Translations under genes and position numbers: made by a program
Notes under the pieces: model-generated
Databases searched by the model: none
What the model was told of the DNA's origin: nothing
The model's input: the letters and a program-made list of their open reading frames with translations, nothing else
In this document: positions 43,059-56,054 of the stretch, one piece after another
Numbering within the stretch: position 1 is the stretch's first letter
Layout of the letters: each line of letters starts with the position of its first letter
DNA from: Bartonella taylorii
GTDB taxonomy: Bacteria; Pseudomonadota; Alphaproteobacteria; Rhizobiales; Rhizobiaceae
Assembly: GCF_023920105.1 (NCBI RefSeq)
Contig: NZ_CP083693.1
Span: forward strand, 637,001 to 701,000
Length of the DNA stretch: 64,000 nt
Direction: 5' to 3'

Positions 43059-44216
43059 GTGAGGGCGATTCATCGGTTATCAGCATCATTCGTAAAGTCG
43101 TCTCCACAAGGAAAATATTGTGACGGGGCAGGGCTATGGTTGAATGTTCGAAAAGACAATACACGCTCTTGGTTTTTTCGCTATACGCACCACAATAAAC
43201 GCCGTGAAATGGGACTTGGTCCTGTTGCAAAACTCTCTTTAAAAGAGGCGCGCGAACTTGCTAGACATTATAGTGATATTCTCAAAGAAGGCAATGATCC
43301 TATTGTTTTTCGAGAACAGACTATTTTAAAACAGCAAAGCAATATCTTCCAAGAAATTGCAAAAGCGGCTTTTGAAAGCAAAAAAGCAGAGTTGAAAAAT
43401 GAAGGCAAAAACGGCCGCTGGTTTTCTCCACTAGAGTTGCACGTTATTCCACACATAGGTAATTTACCTATAGAAAAATTAACAGCCAATATCATTCGCA
43501 ATGTTCTCTCACCCCTTTGGCATGAAAAAGCAGACACAGCGCGAAAAGCACTTAACCGTATCAACATTTGCTTGAAATATGCTGCGGCTCTTGGTTTAGA
43601 TGTTGATTTACAGGCTTGTATGAAGGCACGCGCGCTTTTAGGAAAACCACATGCGACATCAACAAATATTCCTGCTATGCCATGGCAAGAAGTGCCGGTT
43701 TTTTATCAAAGCTTGGATGATAAGATCCTTTCAAATTTAGCACTGAAGTTACTCATTTTGACGGGAGCACGGTCATATCCATTGCGCTATTTGCGCCTTG
43801 AACAAATTGACAAAAATATATGGACGATACCAAAAGAAAACATGAAAGGTATTGTAGGGAAAGTTTCAGACTTTCGCGTGCCACTAAGTGATGAGGCTTT
43901 GAGAGTTATTGAAAAAACTCTCCCCTTTGAAAAGAATGGTTTTCTCTTTTCTGGTCTTAAAGGCAAACCGATTTCGGATGCTACCATGGCAAAATATATG
44001 ACACTTTGCGGTTTGACTTATCGTCCACATGGTTTTCGTTCAAGCTTACGGGATTGGATAGCAGAGACAACGTCAACACCATTTGAGATTGCCGAAACTG
44101 TTCTTGCACATACAGTTGGGAGTTCAGTGACGAAAGCCTACATGCGAACGGATTTTTTAGAACAGCGACATGTTCTTTTAGAGCAGTGGGCGTCTTTTAT
44201 ATCAGGAGAGGCTTGA
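43059..44216 (+). CDS. int: Prophage integrase, P4-type tyrosine recombinase (385 aa)
   Basis: The N-terminal DUF4102 arm-binding domain has GKYCDGAGLWLNVRKDNTRS and YTHHNKRREMGLGPVAKLSL with EARELA. The catalytic domain keeps the first arginine in LTGARSYPLRYLRLEQI, H-x-x-R in RPHGFRSSLRDW, histidine in VLAHTVG, and the tyrosine in KAYMRTD. All catalytic residues are present, so it is probably active. It starts at GTG 43059 after a GA-rich stretch. No tRNA abuts it, unlike most P4-type integrases. A small ORF follows 14 bases later. Confidence 0.92.
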   Translation: MRAIHRLSASFVKSSPQGKYCDGAGLWLNVRKDNTRSWFFRYTHHNKRREMGLGPVAKLSLKEARELARHYSDILKEGNDPIVFREQTILKQQSNIFQEIAKAAFESKKAELKNEGKNGRWFSPLELHVIPHIGNLPIEKLTANIIRNVLSPLWHEKADTARKALNRINICLKYAAALGLDVDLQACMKARALLGKPHATSTNIPAMPWQEVPVFYQSLDDKILSNLALKLLILTGARSYPLRYLRLEQIDKNIWTIPKENMKGIVGKVSDFRVPLSDEALRVIEKTLPFEKNGFLFSGLKGKPISDATMAKYMTLCGLTYRPHGFRSSLRDWIAETTSTPFEIAETVLAHTVGSSVTKAYMRTDFLEQRHVLLEQWASFISGEA

Positions 44217-44229
44217 CAGGATTATAACA

Positions 44230-44352
44230 ATGTGTCTATTGTCGAATGAGGTGCTTGAAAAACACCTTAAAACAACTAGCGGATTGGTTGCCGAAATAAC
44301 TGATCTTCCGCAATTTAAAAGCTTTGACTCATTGTATGCTAGACGCATATAA
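44230..44352 (+). CDS. Small ORF after the integrase (40 aa), overlapping an antisense target copy
   Basis: ATG at 44230 is preceded by AGGA at a good distance, 14 bases after the integrase stop. The 40-residue product begins MCLLSNEVLEKHLKTTSG and ends FDSLYARRI. I do not recognise it. Its codons 9-17 cover a sequence nearly identical to the leader before the antirepressor, and its last codons overlap the C4 promoter. It may be a real small protein or the end of a lost gene. Confidence 0.35.
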   Translation: MCLLSNEVLEKHLKTTSGLVAEITDLPQFKSFDSLYARRI

Positions 44353-44353
44353 T
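44324..44353 (+). promoter_or_regulatory. Sigma-70 promoter of the C4 antisense RNA
   Basis: TTGACT at 44324-44329 and a perfect TATAAT at 44348-44353 are 18 bases apart. The expected start, six or seven bases downstream, falls at 44360, the first base of the C4 helix P1. Confidence 0.8.
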
Positions 44354-44359
44354 AGCTTT

Positions 44360-44447
44360 GTCGGGTGTGGTTATGCCATATAATACCCTTTACGGGGAAA
44401 GCATAACGACGGGCTAGTTGCCGTGTTTTTCAGCACCCGGCATTTTT
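44360..44447 (+). ncRNA. C4-type antisense RNA upstream of the antirepressor
   Basis: The RNA folds into an enclosing helix of 8 pairs (44360-44367 with 44434-44441), a second of 7 perfect pairs GTTATGC/GCATAAC (44370-44376 with 44401-44407) capped by CCC/GGG, and a hairpin ACGG/CCGT at 44409-44424 whose loop shows CTAGTTG. ATTTTT after the enclosing helix could end it. CTAGTTG (44414-44420) and TGTTTTTCA (44424-44432) are exact complements of CAACTAG (44476-44482) and TGAAAAACA (44462-44470) in the antirepressor leader, at its Shine-Dalgarno. In phages P1 and P7, C4 RNA blocks antirepressor translation this way. Confidence 0.8.
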
Positions 44448-44491
44448 ATAAAAAGTGTCAATGAAAAACATCTAACAACTAGGAGTTCGCT

Positions 44492-45025
44492 ATGAACACT
44501 CTTATAGAAATTACGGAACAAATCATTGATCAGGAAACTGTTCAAACCGTTAACGCGCGTGAGTTACATACGTTTTTAGACGTTAATATACGCTTCAACG
44601 ATTGGATTTCACGACGGATTGAAGAATATTCTTTTCAAGAAAATCAAGACTTTGTGAGTTTTACTCAAAAAAGAGTAAAACCTAAAGGCGGTCGTCCAAG
44701 CATAGAATATCACCTCACCTTAGACATGGCGAAAGAACTTTCCATGGTTGAACGCAATGAGAAAGGACGTCAAGCACGCCGTTACTTTATTGAATGTGAA
44801 AAGAAACTGAGAACCCAAGCTGTTGATTATGACCGTGATACACGCTTTGATTTGCCAAGTTATTGGGAAGGTATGAACGCTGGTGAAAAAGTTTTGTATC
44901 TTCTGGGTCCAATACATGTTCGTCTTATTGATGCCTTCAGAGTAGATGAAGAGAATAGAAAATATAAAGCCATCATTAAAGAAGCTAAGCGCGTTCTAGC
45001 AAGATCTGTTGTGAAAGCGGCTTAG
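44492..45025 (+). CDS. AntA-type phage antirepressor (177 aa)
   Basis: The AntA/AntB domain occupies about residues 15-95: TVNARELHTFLDVNIRFNDW, ISRRIEEYSFQENQDFVSFT, and DMAKELSMVERNEKGRQARR with YFIECEK. The C-terminal 70 residues (DYDRDTRFDLPSYWEGM to VLARSVVKAA) are shared with the regulator at 55605-56054. Antirepressors bind phage repressors and trigger lytic growth. The start has AGGAG six bases upstream, and this site is the target of the C4 RNA. A CTCCCCA/TGGGGAG hairpin follows at 45043-45065. Confidence 0.87.
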   Translation: MNTLIEITEQIIDQETVQTVNARELHTFLDVNIRFNDWISRRIEEYSFQENQDFVSFTQKRVKPKGGRPSIEYHLTLDMAKELSMVERNEKGRQARRYFIECEKKLRTQAVDYDRDTRFDLPSYWEGMNAGEKVLYLLGPIHVRLIDAFRVDEENRKYKAIIKEAKRVLARSVVKAA

Positions 45026-45137: not shown

Positions 45138-47180
45138 TTAAACCTTTAATCTAGAAATAAATGCTTCATTCCTTAATTTTGCATCCTGCAATAAATCATT
45201 CCATTCTATTATTTCAACGGATCCTCGAAAATCACCTTGTAGAAGATTAGTTCTCCCTCGCCCATTAGCTGTTTTCTGCCATGTCGACGTTTGCGTTTTA
45301 AGTTCACCTTCTATATCGGCAATAATATAACAATAAAAAACACACTGCTCTGAAATCTTTATTTTCTTATTATCAAATGTCTTTATACTTTTTCCTTTAA
45401 GTTTATTAAGGTATTTGTTTATTTGTTCCATGGGGGTGTAACCCGCTTTATATTTTTTCTGACCTGGTCTTTTAAACTCCACCAACATTAGCCTGTCCAG
45501 ATCTGCATCAAGACGACCTTCAAGTCCTAGGGCATATAATTGATTATAACATAATAAATCAGGACGACTTTTTTCTGTACTATCCTGTATGATTTGATTG
45601 ATAGGCACATCCGAAGCAAAGTATTTTGTAAATGTTAATCGCTCATCAATAATCCATAAATCATGTGTTAAATTTTCCTGAGATTCAGGATCATCCCCCC
45701 GAACACGCATTGGACAAATAAGTTTATGCAATGTTTTCTCTAGATGTGGTACTTCTTGACCATTAACATTTTTCTTAAGTTCTATTATTAATCCTTCTAA
45801 AATTTTAAGTATAACTTTACGACGGATAACATACTCTGCTAACTGTCTTGTTTCTTCATCTTTAACTTCTCTTGCAAGTTCAGAAACTTTTTGAGAAAAG
45901 CTGTCTGTATTGGCATTTCCTTCAGTAATTTCACGGTATATTTCTTCAATTCTCTTATTTTGTTTTTTCTCTCTCCTAAGTTTGTGAATAGCCAGTGTTT
46001 TAACAAACCCCTCTGTATTCTTTGCAGCTTTAGGAAGTGTTTCTAATAATTTTTCATAACTCTCAAAGCGATAGGAGGGATGGGTTTTACAAAACTTTTT
46101 TAATGTATTTAAACGTTTTCTTTCATACTCTTCATTTTCTGGAGCAAGAACACTCTGTGTAATGTTGTTGGCAACGGCACGTAAAATATCTTTTAATATA
46201 CTATTTTTAAAAGAAAAATGCGTTCTTTCTTGATTAACTCTATCATCTAAATATTGGCCACTTATGCAACCATGATATACCAGCTTTTGGGTTCCAAATT
46301 TTCCAAAACCAATAAGGTTATCGATGCTTTCAGTAGTCACAGTACGATCATGTGCGAAAAGATGTAGATAGTGGTTCTTCCCTTTAAAGTTAAGGTTAGC
46401 ATCCGCCATGCAAATAAAATTACGAATTTTTAATAAACCAAAATCTGCGGTTTCAAGTGTAATCTCTCCCCTATTTTCTACTAAATATTTTTTAACTTTC
46501 TGCGCTAAATTGACAGAGATCTGATCATCACGAAAAGTTATTTGAGGAAGTTGTTCTAAAATTAAATCTGAAAAAAAATGTGCTCCAATATGATCGATAA
46601 TTGCTTCAGTTTTGCGTGGAAAATATTTTTGGTACGCTACATCTCTTAAACCGGTAAAAATAATTTCTGTTCCGGTTACTTCTTGATTAATAAGAGGTAT
46701 TTTTGAATGATCAAGAATCTGATTTTCCTCTTCCAAACAAAATGTAAAGCTTCTCTGGTAAAGCTGATCTTCTTCAAGGAATATACTTTTAACTCGTATT
46801 TTCTTAAAGGTATCCAACCATAGCAGCCGCCCAACTCCTTTTCCTCCTTTTTCTAATTTAAAATTAGTATCTACAGTGCGAAAAGCTTGAAAGTGTTCAT
46901 CATCCAATCCTACACCATTGTCTTTAACTATAATTTCAAGTGTTTCATTTTTATCTATATCTTTGATTTCTATATCTATGTTACCCGCGCTTTTGTAATC
47001 TTCTTGCTTAGAATCTTCAAGCGCGTGAATAGCGTTGCTTACCGCTTCAAAAACAGGCTGCAAAGCTTCCATTTCAGTGGACGGTTTAGGAAAACGATAA
47101 ACTCTTCCAGCAAGATTCTCTTTCATAGAAAACTTTTCAGTTTTATTCTTTTCTTGTTTTTGAACTGCGACGTTTTCCAT
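45138..47180 (-). CDS. GHKL (Hsp90-like) ATPase with C-terminal PD-(D/E)xK-like nuclease; candidate defence protein
   Basis: A 680-residue protein. The Bergerat ATP fold has the N-box FEAVSNAIHAL (E45, N49), DNGVG at 87-91 and GGKGVG at 112-117, then a transducer-like middle region. A helical part around residues 400-490 is rich in K and E. Near the C-terminus SRPDLL (D541) and LMLVEFKRPG (E568, K570) give the PD...ExK pattern of restriction-type nucleases. ParaMORC and related ATPase-nuclease proteins occur in restriction and defence loci. The gene is AT-rich, alone, and opposite to the antirepressor, as expected of prophage cargo. ATG 47180 follows AGGTGGG. Confidence 0.7.
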   Translation of the reverse strand: MENVAVQKQEKNKTEKFSMKENLAGRVYRFPKPSTEMEALQPVFEAVSNAIHALEDSKQEDYKSAGNIDIEIKDIDKNETLEIIVKDNGVGLDDEHFQAFRTVDTNFKLEKGGKGVGRLLWLDTFKKIRVKSIFLEEDQLYQRSFTFCLEEENQILDHSKIPLINQEVTGTEIIFTGLRDVAYQKYFPRKTEAIIDHIGAHFFSDLILEQLPQITFRDDQISVNLAQKVKKYLVENRGEITLETADFGLLKIRNFICMADANLNFKGKNHYLHLFAHDRTVTTESIDNLIGFGKFGTQKLVYHGCISGQYLDDRVNQERTHFSFKNSILKDILRAVANNITQSVLAPENEEYERKRLNTLKKFCKTHPSYRFESYEKLLETLPKAAKNTEGFVKTLAIHKLRREKKQNKRIEEIYREITEGNANTDSFSQKVSELAREVKDEETRQLAEYVIRRKVILKILEGLIIELKKNVNGQEVPHLEKTLHKLICPMRVRGDDPESQENLTHDLWIIDERLTFTKYFASDVPINQIIQDSTEKSRPDLLCYNQLYALGLEGRLDADLDRLMLVEFKRPGQKKYKAGYTPMEQINKYLNKLKGKSIKTFDNKKIKISEQCVFYCYIIADIEGELKTQTSTWQKTANGRGRTNLLQGDFRGSVEIIEWNDLLQDAKLRNEAFISRLKV

Positions 47181-47387
47181 AATTATTCCCACCTTTTTAG
47201 CCGATAATATTACGAAATATACCTATTAAACGCACGTATATTAACAATTTGTTATTATTATAGAACAAATTTTTAATTCTTTGAAATCCACTGTTTTAAA
47301 TGGGCGAAGGCATTCTCTATCACCTCCATGAGACGAGCAAATTTAAGAATCCATTTTCTAAAGAACTTCGCGCGTCTCAGAGTATGT

Positions 47388-48618: not shown

Positions 48619-48748
48619 ATGCTTCTCCATAAAAAAATCCCCACACAAGGCGGGGATGACTGACAGACTAAAAATTAACTCCTTTTCCATTCGAAAGGAT
48701 GGCTTGTTAAAACTCATGTAGCTTTTTCATTGGAACACAATAATGTCT

Positions 48749-48783
48749 TTGACATTATCAATTTTGTAGCATATAAGCTACAA
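48749..48783 (+). promoter_or_regulatory. Promoter with palindromic operator of the first HigBA-like module
   Basis: TTGACA at 48749-48754 and TATAAG at 48772-48777 are 17 bases apart. The perfect inverted repeat TTGTAGC/GCTACAA (48764-48770 and 48777-48783) spans the -10 box and ends at the base before the toxin ATG. It is a likely site for autorepression by the toxin-antitoxin complex. No Shine-Dalgarno fits between it and the start codon. Confidence 0.7.
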
Positions 48784-49086
48784 ATGTTTATTGTCAAAAA
48801 AACACTATATTTTACAGAGTGGTTAGACTCATTAAAAGATAAACAAGTGCAAAAGAAAATTGCTGCACGTATTTTCCGCCTTGAATATGGACTTCTAGGG
48901 GACGTGAAATATTTCCGTGGTATCGGTGAGTTAAAAATAAATCATGGACCAGGCTATAGGATTTATTTTGTAAAACAAGGAAAACAAATCATTTTACTGT
49001 TAAATGCTGGTGATAAATCCACACAACAGAAAGATATCGAAAAAGCCCTTCAATTAGTAAAGGAAATAAAAGATGGAAATTACTAA
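48784..49086 (+). CDS. RelE/HigB-superfamily toxin of addiction module (Gp49-like, 100 aa)
   Basis: A small basic toxin of the type 'addiction module killer protein'. Motifs: TLYFTEWLDSLKDKQVQKKI then AARIFRLEYGLLGDVKYFRG, IGELKINHGPGYRIYFVKQG and LLLNAGDKSTQQKDIEKA. The family acts as a ribosome-dependent mRNA nuclease. The antitoxin follows with a 14-base overlap. The ATG at 48784 has no ribosome site, and the promoter places the transcription start at or next to this A, so the mRNA may be leaderless. The pair stands on the strand opposite the tail and lysis genes. Confidence 0.85.
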   Translation: MFIVKKTLYFTEWLDSLKDKQVQKKIAARIFRLEYGLLGDVKYFRGIGELKINHGPGYRIYFVKQGKQIILLLNAGDKSTQQKDIEKALQLVKEIKDGNY

Positions 49087-49393
49087 ATTTGATGTAAGTG
49101 AATATTTTAAAACGCCTGAAGACTTTAAGATCTTATTGCAAGATGCTTTAGAAACTAAAAATAGTGGCTATATTGCACATGTATTAGGCATTATTGCGCG
49201 TAAACAAGGAATGACAGCTGTTTCTCAAGAAACAGGTTTAAATCGCGAGTCTCTCTATCGTTCTTTAAGTGATAAAGGCGATCCACGGCTTTCTACTTTT
49301 CTCAGCGTTTTGAGTGCTTTAAATTTACAGATTAGCTTAGCGCCTATCCAAAATAATTGTAAGGAACAGGCAGCTTTAGAAGAAGCATCTTGA
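49073..49393 (+). CDS. HTH antitoxin of addiction module (COG3636-like, 106 aa)
   Basis: The antidote to the preceding toxin. The N-terminal part is DVSEYFKTPEDFKILLQDAL, and the DNA-binding part is ALGIIARKQGMTAVSQETGL-like (VLGIIARKQGMTAVSQETGL) with NRESLYRSLSDKGDPRLSTF and SVLSALNLQ. It presumably binds the palindrome at 48764-48783 together with the toxin. A terminator follows five bases after the stop. Confidence 0.88.
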   Translation: MEITKFDVSEYFKTPEDFKILLQDALETKNSGYIAHVLGIIARKQGMTAVSQETGLNRESLYRSLSDKGDPRLSTFLSVLSALNLQISLAPIQNNCKEQAALEEAS

Positions 49394-55604: not shown

Positions 55605-56054
55605 ATGGGAAAAATGAGGGTTGGATTTGAAATCGCACCCTTTAAAACAGCAAAACATAAGGATTTTGGTTCACTCGCATTTGAAATGCGAGTGAGTAAA
55701 AGAGACGGTAAAGGCGGTCAAAAGAGAGAAGTTGCTATCCTCAATGAACCACAAGCCACTCTACTCATGACCTATATGCGTAACAATGATACGGTGCGTG
55801 CATTCAAAAAAGCACTCGTTAAAGCTTTCTATGATTTAAAAAACCAGTTAATTGATAATGACCGTGATACACGCTTTGATTTTCCAAGCAACTGGGATGA
55901 AATGGGACCTACTGAAAAAGCTGTTTATATTTATGGACCGCTTCACATGCATCTTGTTAAAGCCTTTACATTAGCAGAAGAGAGCAAACACTATAAAACG
56001 CTTGTTGAAGAAGCCAAACGAGTTTTAGTAAGCCCTGTTGCAAAAGTAGCTTAA
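55605..56054 (+). CDS. Truncated Rha-type phage regulator with antirepressor C-terminal domain (149 aa)
   Basis: Residues 10-80 (KHKDFGSLAFEMRVSKRDG, VAILNEPQATLLMTYMRNND, AFKKALVKAFYDLK) match the Rha family of phage regulators. The last 70 residues (DNDRDTRFDFPSNWDEMGPT to VLVSPVAKVA) match the C-terminus of the AntA antirepressor at 44492-45025. The usual Rha N-terminal HTH part is missing, and the start lies only 38 bases from the divergent sheath start with no room for a normal promoter, so the gene is likely 5'-truncated. A CTCCTCG/CGGGGAG hairpin follows. Confidence 0.6.
   Translation: MGKMRVGFEIAPFKTAKHKDFGSLAFEMRVSKRDGKGGQKREVAILNEPQATLLMTYMRNNDTVRAFKKALVKAFYDLKNQLIDNDRDTRFDFPSNWDEMGPTEKAVYIYGPLHMHLVKAFTLAEESKHYKTLVEEAKRVLVSPVAKVA

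Follow-up and report, generated by a model that had tools for sequence, protein, structure and literature searches.

With a probability that we put at about 80%, the antirepressor gene antA in this stretch of Bartonella DNA is controlled by a C4-type antisense switch whose RNA is of the sRNA-Xcc1 type and has an upstream element, a1b1, as its antagonist. The upstream element, the antisense RNA and the antA leader are all present, their pairing blocks are exactly complementary, and the three change together among relatives. In a lysogen, the second of two promoter-like sites would yield a folded RNA of about 88 bases, whose loop block b' and junction block a' would pair with b2 and a2, cover the Shine-Dalgarno sequence and keep the antirepressor off. 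The a1b1 element carries copies of both target blocks, set in another structural frame and preceded by a promoter-like site of its own. Once transcribed, it would pair with the RNA, unfold its closing stem and draw it off the leader; with the leader freed, AntA would be made and induction would proceed. We infer transcription from both promoters, translational repression, which way a1b1 works and what AntA acts on.

Layout of the antA locus

The features are collected in Table 1, with positions counted in the window, i.e. the whole stretch of 64,000 nucleotides that was analysed. The blocks are named after those of phage P1: b' is the loop and a' the junction block of the RNA, a1 and b1 are the upstream copies of the target, and a2 and b2 are the leader copies.

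Table 1. Elements of the antA locus, with their positions in the window
Feature	Position	Strand	Remarks
Tyrosine integrase gene	43059..44216	+	Directly 5' of the element; Pfam Arm-DNA-bind_3, Phage_int_M, Phage_integrase; PHROG integrase
Promoter-like site 1, TTGACA-18-TATTGT	44213..44242	+	10/12 matches; overlaps the integrase stop codon; would drive a1b1
Hairpin 1, loop presents block a1	44250..44266	+	4-pair stem in 35-36/36 genus loci; GC/AU exchange at first pair
Block a1 (TGAAAAACA)	44256..44264	+	Exact complement of a'
Block b1 (CAACTAG)	44273..44279	+	Exact complement of b'
Hairpin 2 after b1, possible attenuator	44279..44311	+	Predicted fold; two-sided pair-preserving changes in the genus alignment
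Promoter-like site 2, TTGACT-18-TATAAT	44324..44353 (TTGACT 44324-44329, TATAAT 44348-44353)	+	11/12 matches; for the antisense RNA
Antisense RNA resembling sRNA-Xcc1 (RF02221)	44359 to about 44447; model match to 44450	+	Covariance model, fold, compensatory changes
Block b' (CTAGTTG), third-helix loop	44414..44420	+	
Block a' (TGTTTTTCA), mostly in 3' junction	44424..44432	+	
Block a2 (TGAAAAACA), antA leader	44462..44470	+	Exact complement of a'
Block b2 (CAACTAG), antA leader	44476..44482	+	Exact complement of b'; overlaps Shine-Dalgarno AGGAG 44481-44485
antA, antirepressor, 177 aa	44492..45025	+	Pfam AntA 1.7e-28; PHROG anti-repressor Ant 8.4e-49

An earlier note, made from the letters alone, had described a promoter-like site, a folded RNA, two blocks in the leader and a second copy of them upstream, and we found all of these where it had placed them. 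The exact complementarity of CTAGTTG and TGTTTTTCA to two blocks of the antA leader, one of which reaches into the Shine-Dalgarno sequence, was confirmed as well. Neither block is rare by itself (CTAGTTG occurs 4 times in the window and 5.79 times in shuffles, TGTTTTTCA 10 times and 3.20 times). The ordered pair of target blocks, by contrast, occurs twice in the 64-kb window and in none of 100 shuffles. The product of antA belongs to the AntA domain family (PF08346), with 99.4 bits against a curated cut-off of 27 bits.

The RNA of about 88 bases with four helices was reproduced by folding. The predicted structure of 44359-44448 has four helices in a Y shape and an energy of -31.9 kcal/mol (z -2.83), which was equalled by 2 of 200 shuffles. 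The consensus fold shows compensatory changes in the stems, most clearly in the third helix.

Since a scan of 44150-44520 gave 2 promoter-like sites where shuffles gave 1.0, the promoter evidence alone is weak. A simple scan of the same interval found no intrinsic terminator for either RNA. A site of the promoter 1 type is present in 35 of 37 genus loci, which is a weak count given 54% in shuffles; inspection by eye shows a TTGACA-like box before a1b1 in most of these loci. Promoter 2 reaches a score of at least 9 in 23 of the 37, compared with 16% in shuffles, and the other 14 have no strong site. Outside the genus, this score is reached in 1 of 42 loci (shuffles 3%) and in 2 of 113 (shuffles 2%). 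The ends of the RNA differ too: an ATG lies at the 5' junction in 27 of 42 loci outside the genus compared with 5 of 37 inside, and an ACC lies near the 3' end in 17 of 42 compared with 4 of 37. With a promoter-like site immediately 5' of it, the RNA is more likely to be a primary transcript, and the genus form with promoter 2 probably makes one. The forms outside the genus may carry a processed RNA, as reported for C4. In having its own promoter-like site, the window RNA is unlike the C4 RNA of P1, which RNase P reportedly releases from a longer precursor (PMC5320573).

In the 36 genus loci aligned for the upstream element, the loop of one hairpin presents a1; next comes b1, which is unpaired, and then another conserved hairpin. 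Judged by this conserved frame of its own, a1b1 is not a simple repeat of the leader. The earlier note had seen the upstream copy as lying inside a 40-codon reading frame linked to the integrase. That frame is present in the window (44230-44352), but an ATG frame across the a1b1 site is kept in just 4 of 36 genus loci, and we therefore rejected a conserved upstream peptide; rather than belonging to a frame linked to the integrase, a1b1 is better taken as an RNA element that has a promoter-like site to itself. Nor can a second copy of the target be called unusual, as had been claimed. The P1 record shows a1 and b1 upstream of c4, together with two promoters and a C1 operator, and Rfam holds a c4-a1b1 family, so that the second copy belongs to a known plan. 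Titration of the antisense RNA by the upstream copy is possible.

Eight loci (L004, L010, L013, L014, L018, L027, L030, L034) share a 12-base palindrome, AAATACGTATTT, which comes right behind the -35 box of the promoter-like site for a1b1 and looks like an operator; several of these loci have a YdcK-like downstream gene. Around antA itself, the next gene, on the opposite strand (45138-47192, -), encodes a HATPase-domain protein of 684 residues that had no PHROG match at 0.001 and is possibly a defence or accessory gene. The prophage also holds, by PHROG match, a small toxin/repressor pair (48730-49393, +), and a short pRha-like regulator frame (55605-56054, +) adjoins tail genes of the opposite orientation. 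Besides the copy at antA, there was no sRNA-Xcc1 match in the window, including the surroundings of the pRha-like frame.

Family of the RNA and covariation with its targets

The earlier note had proposed a match to the Rfam model of C4 (RF01695, gathering score 45 bits) as the check on its C4 assignment, and the lack of one as grounds for refuting it. Membership in that family fell away: the model had no match on 44200-44520 (321 bases) at E<=10, nor did it match anywhere in the genome at E<=1. The models RF03163 (c4-a1b1) and RF01394 gave no match at 44200-44520 either. Phage P1, used as a positive control, scored 68.8 bits with C4 and 51 bits with c4-a1b1. What matches instead is sRNA-Xcc1 (RF02221), over the full model with 42.2 bits and an E-value of 2.4e-6, although this is below the gathering score of 53. 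The RF02221 model did not match P1 C4 at E<=10. C4 and c4-a1b1 both belong to clan CL00128, while RF02221 is shown without an Rfam clan.

The C4 mechanism as such held up, in that a C4-type antisense switch on the AntA leader is supported by the covariation described below. The locus shares with C4 the Y-shaped fold and the loop and junction blocks complementary to the leader at the ribosome site; it also has the upstream a1/b1 element, yet without a match to RF03163 or RF01394. An antisense switch that is C4-type in plan and sRNA-Xcc1-like in family is thus well supported. Identity with the Bartonella Brt RNAs was considered and rejected. These are described as 194-203 bases long and as lying before an XRE helix-turn-helix gene (PMC5387305), and an RNA of about 88 bases before AntA is set apart from that description by length and neighbour gene.

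Eight copies of sRNA-Xcc1 were found in this genome, 2 of them above the gathering score, and 32 of 61 genus genomes have a copy above it. At E<=0.01, 41 of the 61 carry copies, up to 44 in one genome; at E<=1e-4 the RNA is found in 55 of 398 genomes of the phylum and 12 of 249 of the order. A further 40 genus loci were taken from among the matches listed in the genus search. Control searches gave a match in 2 of 14 genomes at E<=1, none reaching the cut-off, and in 0 of 14 in the genus, phylum and order searches. Phage records held no DNA match to 44200-44560; among plasmid records, the RNA is present in 5 Bartonella plasmids at 80-84% identity. Just past the window, at G000:C1 704314-723364, lie six more sRNA-Xcc1 matches within about 19 kb. 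They include two tandem pairs about 270 bases apart, and three of the copies stand, by clustering, before AntA-like genes.

Strong evidence for pairing comes from the way in which the blocks change. Among 75 distinct genus contexts (only RNAs that fit one expression and have full flanks, with blocks from loci that have another block as background), there are 31 different b' heptamers and nine a' blocks. Block b2 is exactly complementary to b' in 65 of the 75 and block b1 in 69; the mismatched-locus background is 0/5376 and 40/5376, respectively. For a', the exact complement is found as a2 in 64 contexts (background 697/4766) and as a1 in 71 (783/4766). All four target blocks are exact in 58 of the 75.

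A longest-run test of the loop block outside the genus had given little (upstream 6.00 against 5.85, z 1.0; downstream 5.48 against 5.14, z 2.4), and we think that constant bases beside the loop inflate its background. It was replaced by a score for two blocks in order. In a set of 71 loci that came out of the searches at genus, order and phylum level, loci scored 15.87 with their own upstream sequence and 9.0 with swapped ones (z 19.1); downstream, the values were 12.58 and 6.45 (z 12.4). These 71 were drawn from 79, with L016, L020, L024, L026, L029, L036, L075 and L076 omitted and the window standing for L006. The 113 named loci, left from at least 121 matches once short flanks and repeats had been dropped, gave 14.64 against 8.90 upstream (z 18.8) and 9.43 against 6.08 downstream (z 8.6). 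The background of this score is high, with values of at least 11 in 3060 of 12656 swapped pairs upstream (24%) and 1468 of 12656 downstream (12%). Against this 24%, the upstream a1b1 matches in 106 of the 113 named loci. The covariation of the antisense blocks with both targets in related prophages, which the earlier note had suggested as a check, is therefore strong. The code changes even among close relatives, which argues for selection on the pairing, although shuffles ignore relatedness. In this genome the block pairs are distinct in all 8 copies, so one genome in the genus can carry several modules with different pairing codes.

Role of the upstream element

The mechanism with the best support is that the RNA blocks the antA ribosome site and that a1b1 antagonises it. 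The second step draws on the reach of the a1b1 pairing and on Salmonella, where short IsrK is reported to switch on an antirepressor operon (PMC4825925). In the window, two-strand folding gave -6.2 kcal/mol for the RNA with a1b1, with pairing that extends into the closing stem, and -1.8 for the RNA with the leader; the expected a/b pairing was absent from the predicted leader complex, and the method cannot represent kissing loops. Over the 37 genus loci, the values are -6.1 and -5.5, with a1b1 the stronger partner in 21, and these near-equal energies make the energy argument for antagonism weak.

The Xanthomonadales are an exception to the two-target plan. Among their 46 named loci (grouped by hand from record titles), 44 have a1b1 and 5 have a2b2, the latter being background level (swapped controls 24% and 12%), compared with 62 and 60 of the 67 named loci from other groups. 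One cluster of seven Xanthomonas loci whose downstream genes are alike (L100, L116, L127, L158, L178, L193, L200) has 6 different loops; a1b1 follows the loop in 6 of the 7 and a2b2 in none. For the 48 loci without a2b2, a target search of each locus listed at most 3 matches. Most of those listed were the minus strand of the RNA gene itself; L161 gave another copy, and there were scattered stretches of 13-15 matching bases. Since a1b1 covaries with no leader target close by, its pairing with the RNA appears to be selected in these loci on its own, and they can serve as natural experiments on the role of a1b1.

A pure cis decoy role for a1b1 does not explain loci in which it covaries though a2b2 is gone. 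They are fitted better by a reading to which we give a lesser but real chance, in which a1b1 is the first target of the RNA on a nascent read-through transcript and pairing there would stop transcription, with a2b2 pairing as an added block of translation. The same Xanthomonas cluster of seven fits this reading, and so does a run of five T residues between a1b1 and the RNA, at a distance of 20-80 bases from the latter: outside the genus it is present in 31 of 42 loci and in 99 of 113, often, by eye, after the hairpin that follows b1, and inside the genus in 10 of 37. There is also a reported precedent in the CI RNA of phage P4 at seqA (PMC4825925). The window itself speaks against it, because hairpin 2 has no T run behind it, and transcription from promoter 2, which is further downstream, would escape a block there; in Salmonella, moreover, the short IsrK is reported to activate rather than repress (PMC4825925). 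Antagonism and attenuation could both operate, and our preference for a1b1 as antagonist is an inference. Some copies keep a1b1 and the RNA and have no leader target. At 3 of the 8 copies in this genome a2b2 is absent, and two of these, L005 and L008, keep an exact a1b1, a pattern that fits either immunity RNAs or decay. That such orphans act in trans as immunity RNAs against phages with a matching leader strikes us as unlikely. Exact targets of L005 and L008, together with the GAG of the Shine-Dalgarno sequence, occur in 5 and 4 of the 61 genus genomes and not in their own, with 0 for reversed patterns, and none of 158 co-resident pairs of copies share both blocks once identical contexts are merged. 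This co-residence result is not significant, however: 23 of 2617 between-genome pairs share both, so that 1.4 would be expected, and the merging favours a low count within genomes. The third orphan, L007, matches neither target, and decay after loss of the antirepressor would give the same pattern.

Least probable by far, and rejected by us, is a functionless, passive duplication of the leader. Rearrangements are common beside integrases, and the two blocks are indeed repeated exactly beside one. The upstream copy nevertheless has conserved hairpins and a conserved spacing of its own, is unlike the leader beyond the two blocks, and tracks the changes of the RNA both in the genus (69-71 of 75 contexts) and elsewhere in the Pseudomonadota; P1 has such a copy too. 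The covariation and the conserved a1b1 frame decide the matter.

The orphans L005 and L036, from different genomes, have nearly identical downstream sequence and different loops. Another orphan, which has a1b1 but no target in a leader, is found at L052 24-1584 (genome G456), with the end of a CRISPR array (DR4 repeats) about 300 bases away.

Known systems and the sRNA-Xcc1 family

Among the nearest known systems is C4 of P1 and P7 (RF01695, RF03163). In P1, which we examined, the order is likewise a1 b1, antisense RNA, a2 b2 and antirepressor operon; the RNA takes a Y shape, its two blocks lying in the loop of the third helix and in the 3' junction, and b2 lies near the ribosome site. The antA locus differs in that 44200-44520 has no match to RF01695, RF03163 or RF01394 and that AntA stands in place of Icd/Ant1. 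The c4-a1b1 element is listed as a separate motif (PMC2864571). The Gifsy-1 operon of Salmonella, with IsrK, STnc1160 and anrP, resembles this plan in having an upstream RNA element, a second stable RNA complementary to it and an antirepressor in one operon, and short IsrK is reported to activate that operon in trans (PMC4825925). It differs in that its second RNA apparently arises by processing and that the effect runs through translational coupling from orf45 (PMC4825925), and isrK has no match at 44200-44520. The CI RNA of phage P4 is comparable by its description as an antisense RNA with complementary sites upstream and downstream (seqA, seqC), although it acts through transcription termination on replication genes (PMC4825925).

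The likeness to sRNA-Xcc1 is one of sequence and structure over the full model, the window copy being below the gathering score. In Xanthomonas campestris, sRNA-Xcc1 is reported as an 88-base transcript, established by Northern blot and end mapping, with many predicted targets (PMC2996969). The published descriptions, so far as they are accessible, treat it as an sRNA with predicted targets and tie it to virulence regulators; their accessible parts mention neither a1b1 nor a link to antirepressors (PMC2996969, PMC12189769, PMC12444791). A literature search, mostly of openly accessible papers, found nothing that joins sRNA-Xcc1 with an antirepressor, C4 or a1b1, and nothing relevant on c4-2. 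The exception was a Xylella annotation table that lists matches to sRNA-Xcc1, C4 and isrK.

The genes downstream of the RNA agree with a wider pattern. Out of 122 downstream protein clusters, 83 were chosen by hand and scanned (for 8 of 192 loci no reading frame was selected). Pfam matches were Bro-N in 16, pRha in 10, AntA in 9, P22_AR_N in 4, ORF6N in 3 and KilA-N in 1, so that antirepressor families account for about half of the scanned proteins (at most 43, as domains may co-occur). SymE and the YdcK-like solenoid were found in 4 each, and the NCBIfam entry XAC0095 in 14.

SymE was then present in 13 of 200 genomes in the order of genome G272, and 20 SymE loci were scanned out of 30 taken from 50 matches listed. 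In 14 of the 20, sRNA-Xcc1 is above the cut-off, and in 12 it lies on the SymE strand. At 4 of these 12, the domain starts 71-77 bases after the RNA and b2 is at the Shine-Dalgarno sequence (exact in 3, with one difference in the fourth); at the other 8, the domain is 224-324 bases away and no leader b2 was seen by eye. One Xanthomonadales SymE locus has a C4 match of 74.1 bits and a sub-threshold isrK match, where other loci have sRNA-Xcc1 with a1b1. At a further SymE locus, L261 1316-1389 (genome G779), a SymR match below threshold (45.8 bits, against a cut-off of 61) stands in place of sRNA-Xcc1.

The wider point worth following is sRNA-Xcc1 as a C4-type family. We regard it as close to an open bet, though tilted slightly against, that the whole family is a second, unrecognised C4-type branch that silences antirepressors and SymE. 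Most of its Xanthomonadales members would then have lost the leader target and would act only through a1b1 attenuation of their own operon or as immunity RNAs in trans, and a virulence role would be secondary. This would suggest a reason for the place of sRNA-Xcc1 ahead of symE in integron cassettes of Xanthomonas, as described in 2025 with no mechanism given in the accessible text (PMC12444791), although the more distant Xanthomonadales SymE loci show no leader block by eye. More generally, the switch offers a concrete function for a widespread RNA family that has so far been read through its predicted virulence targets.
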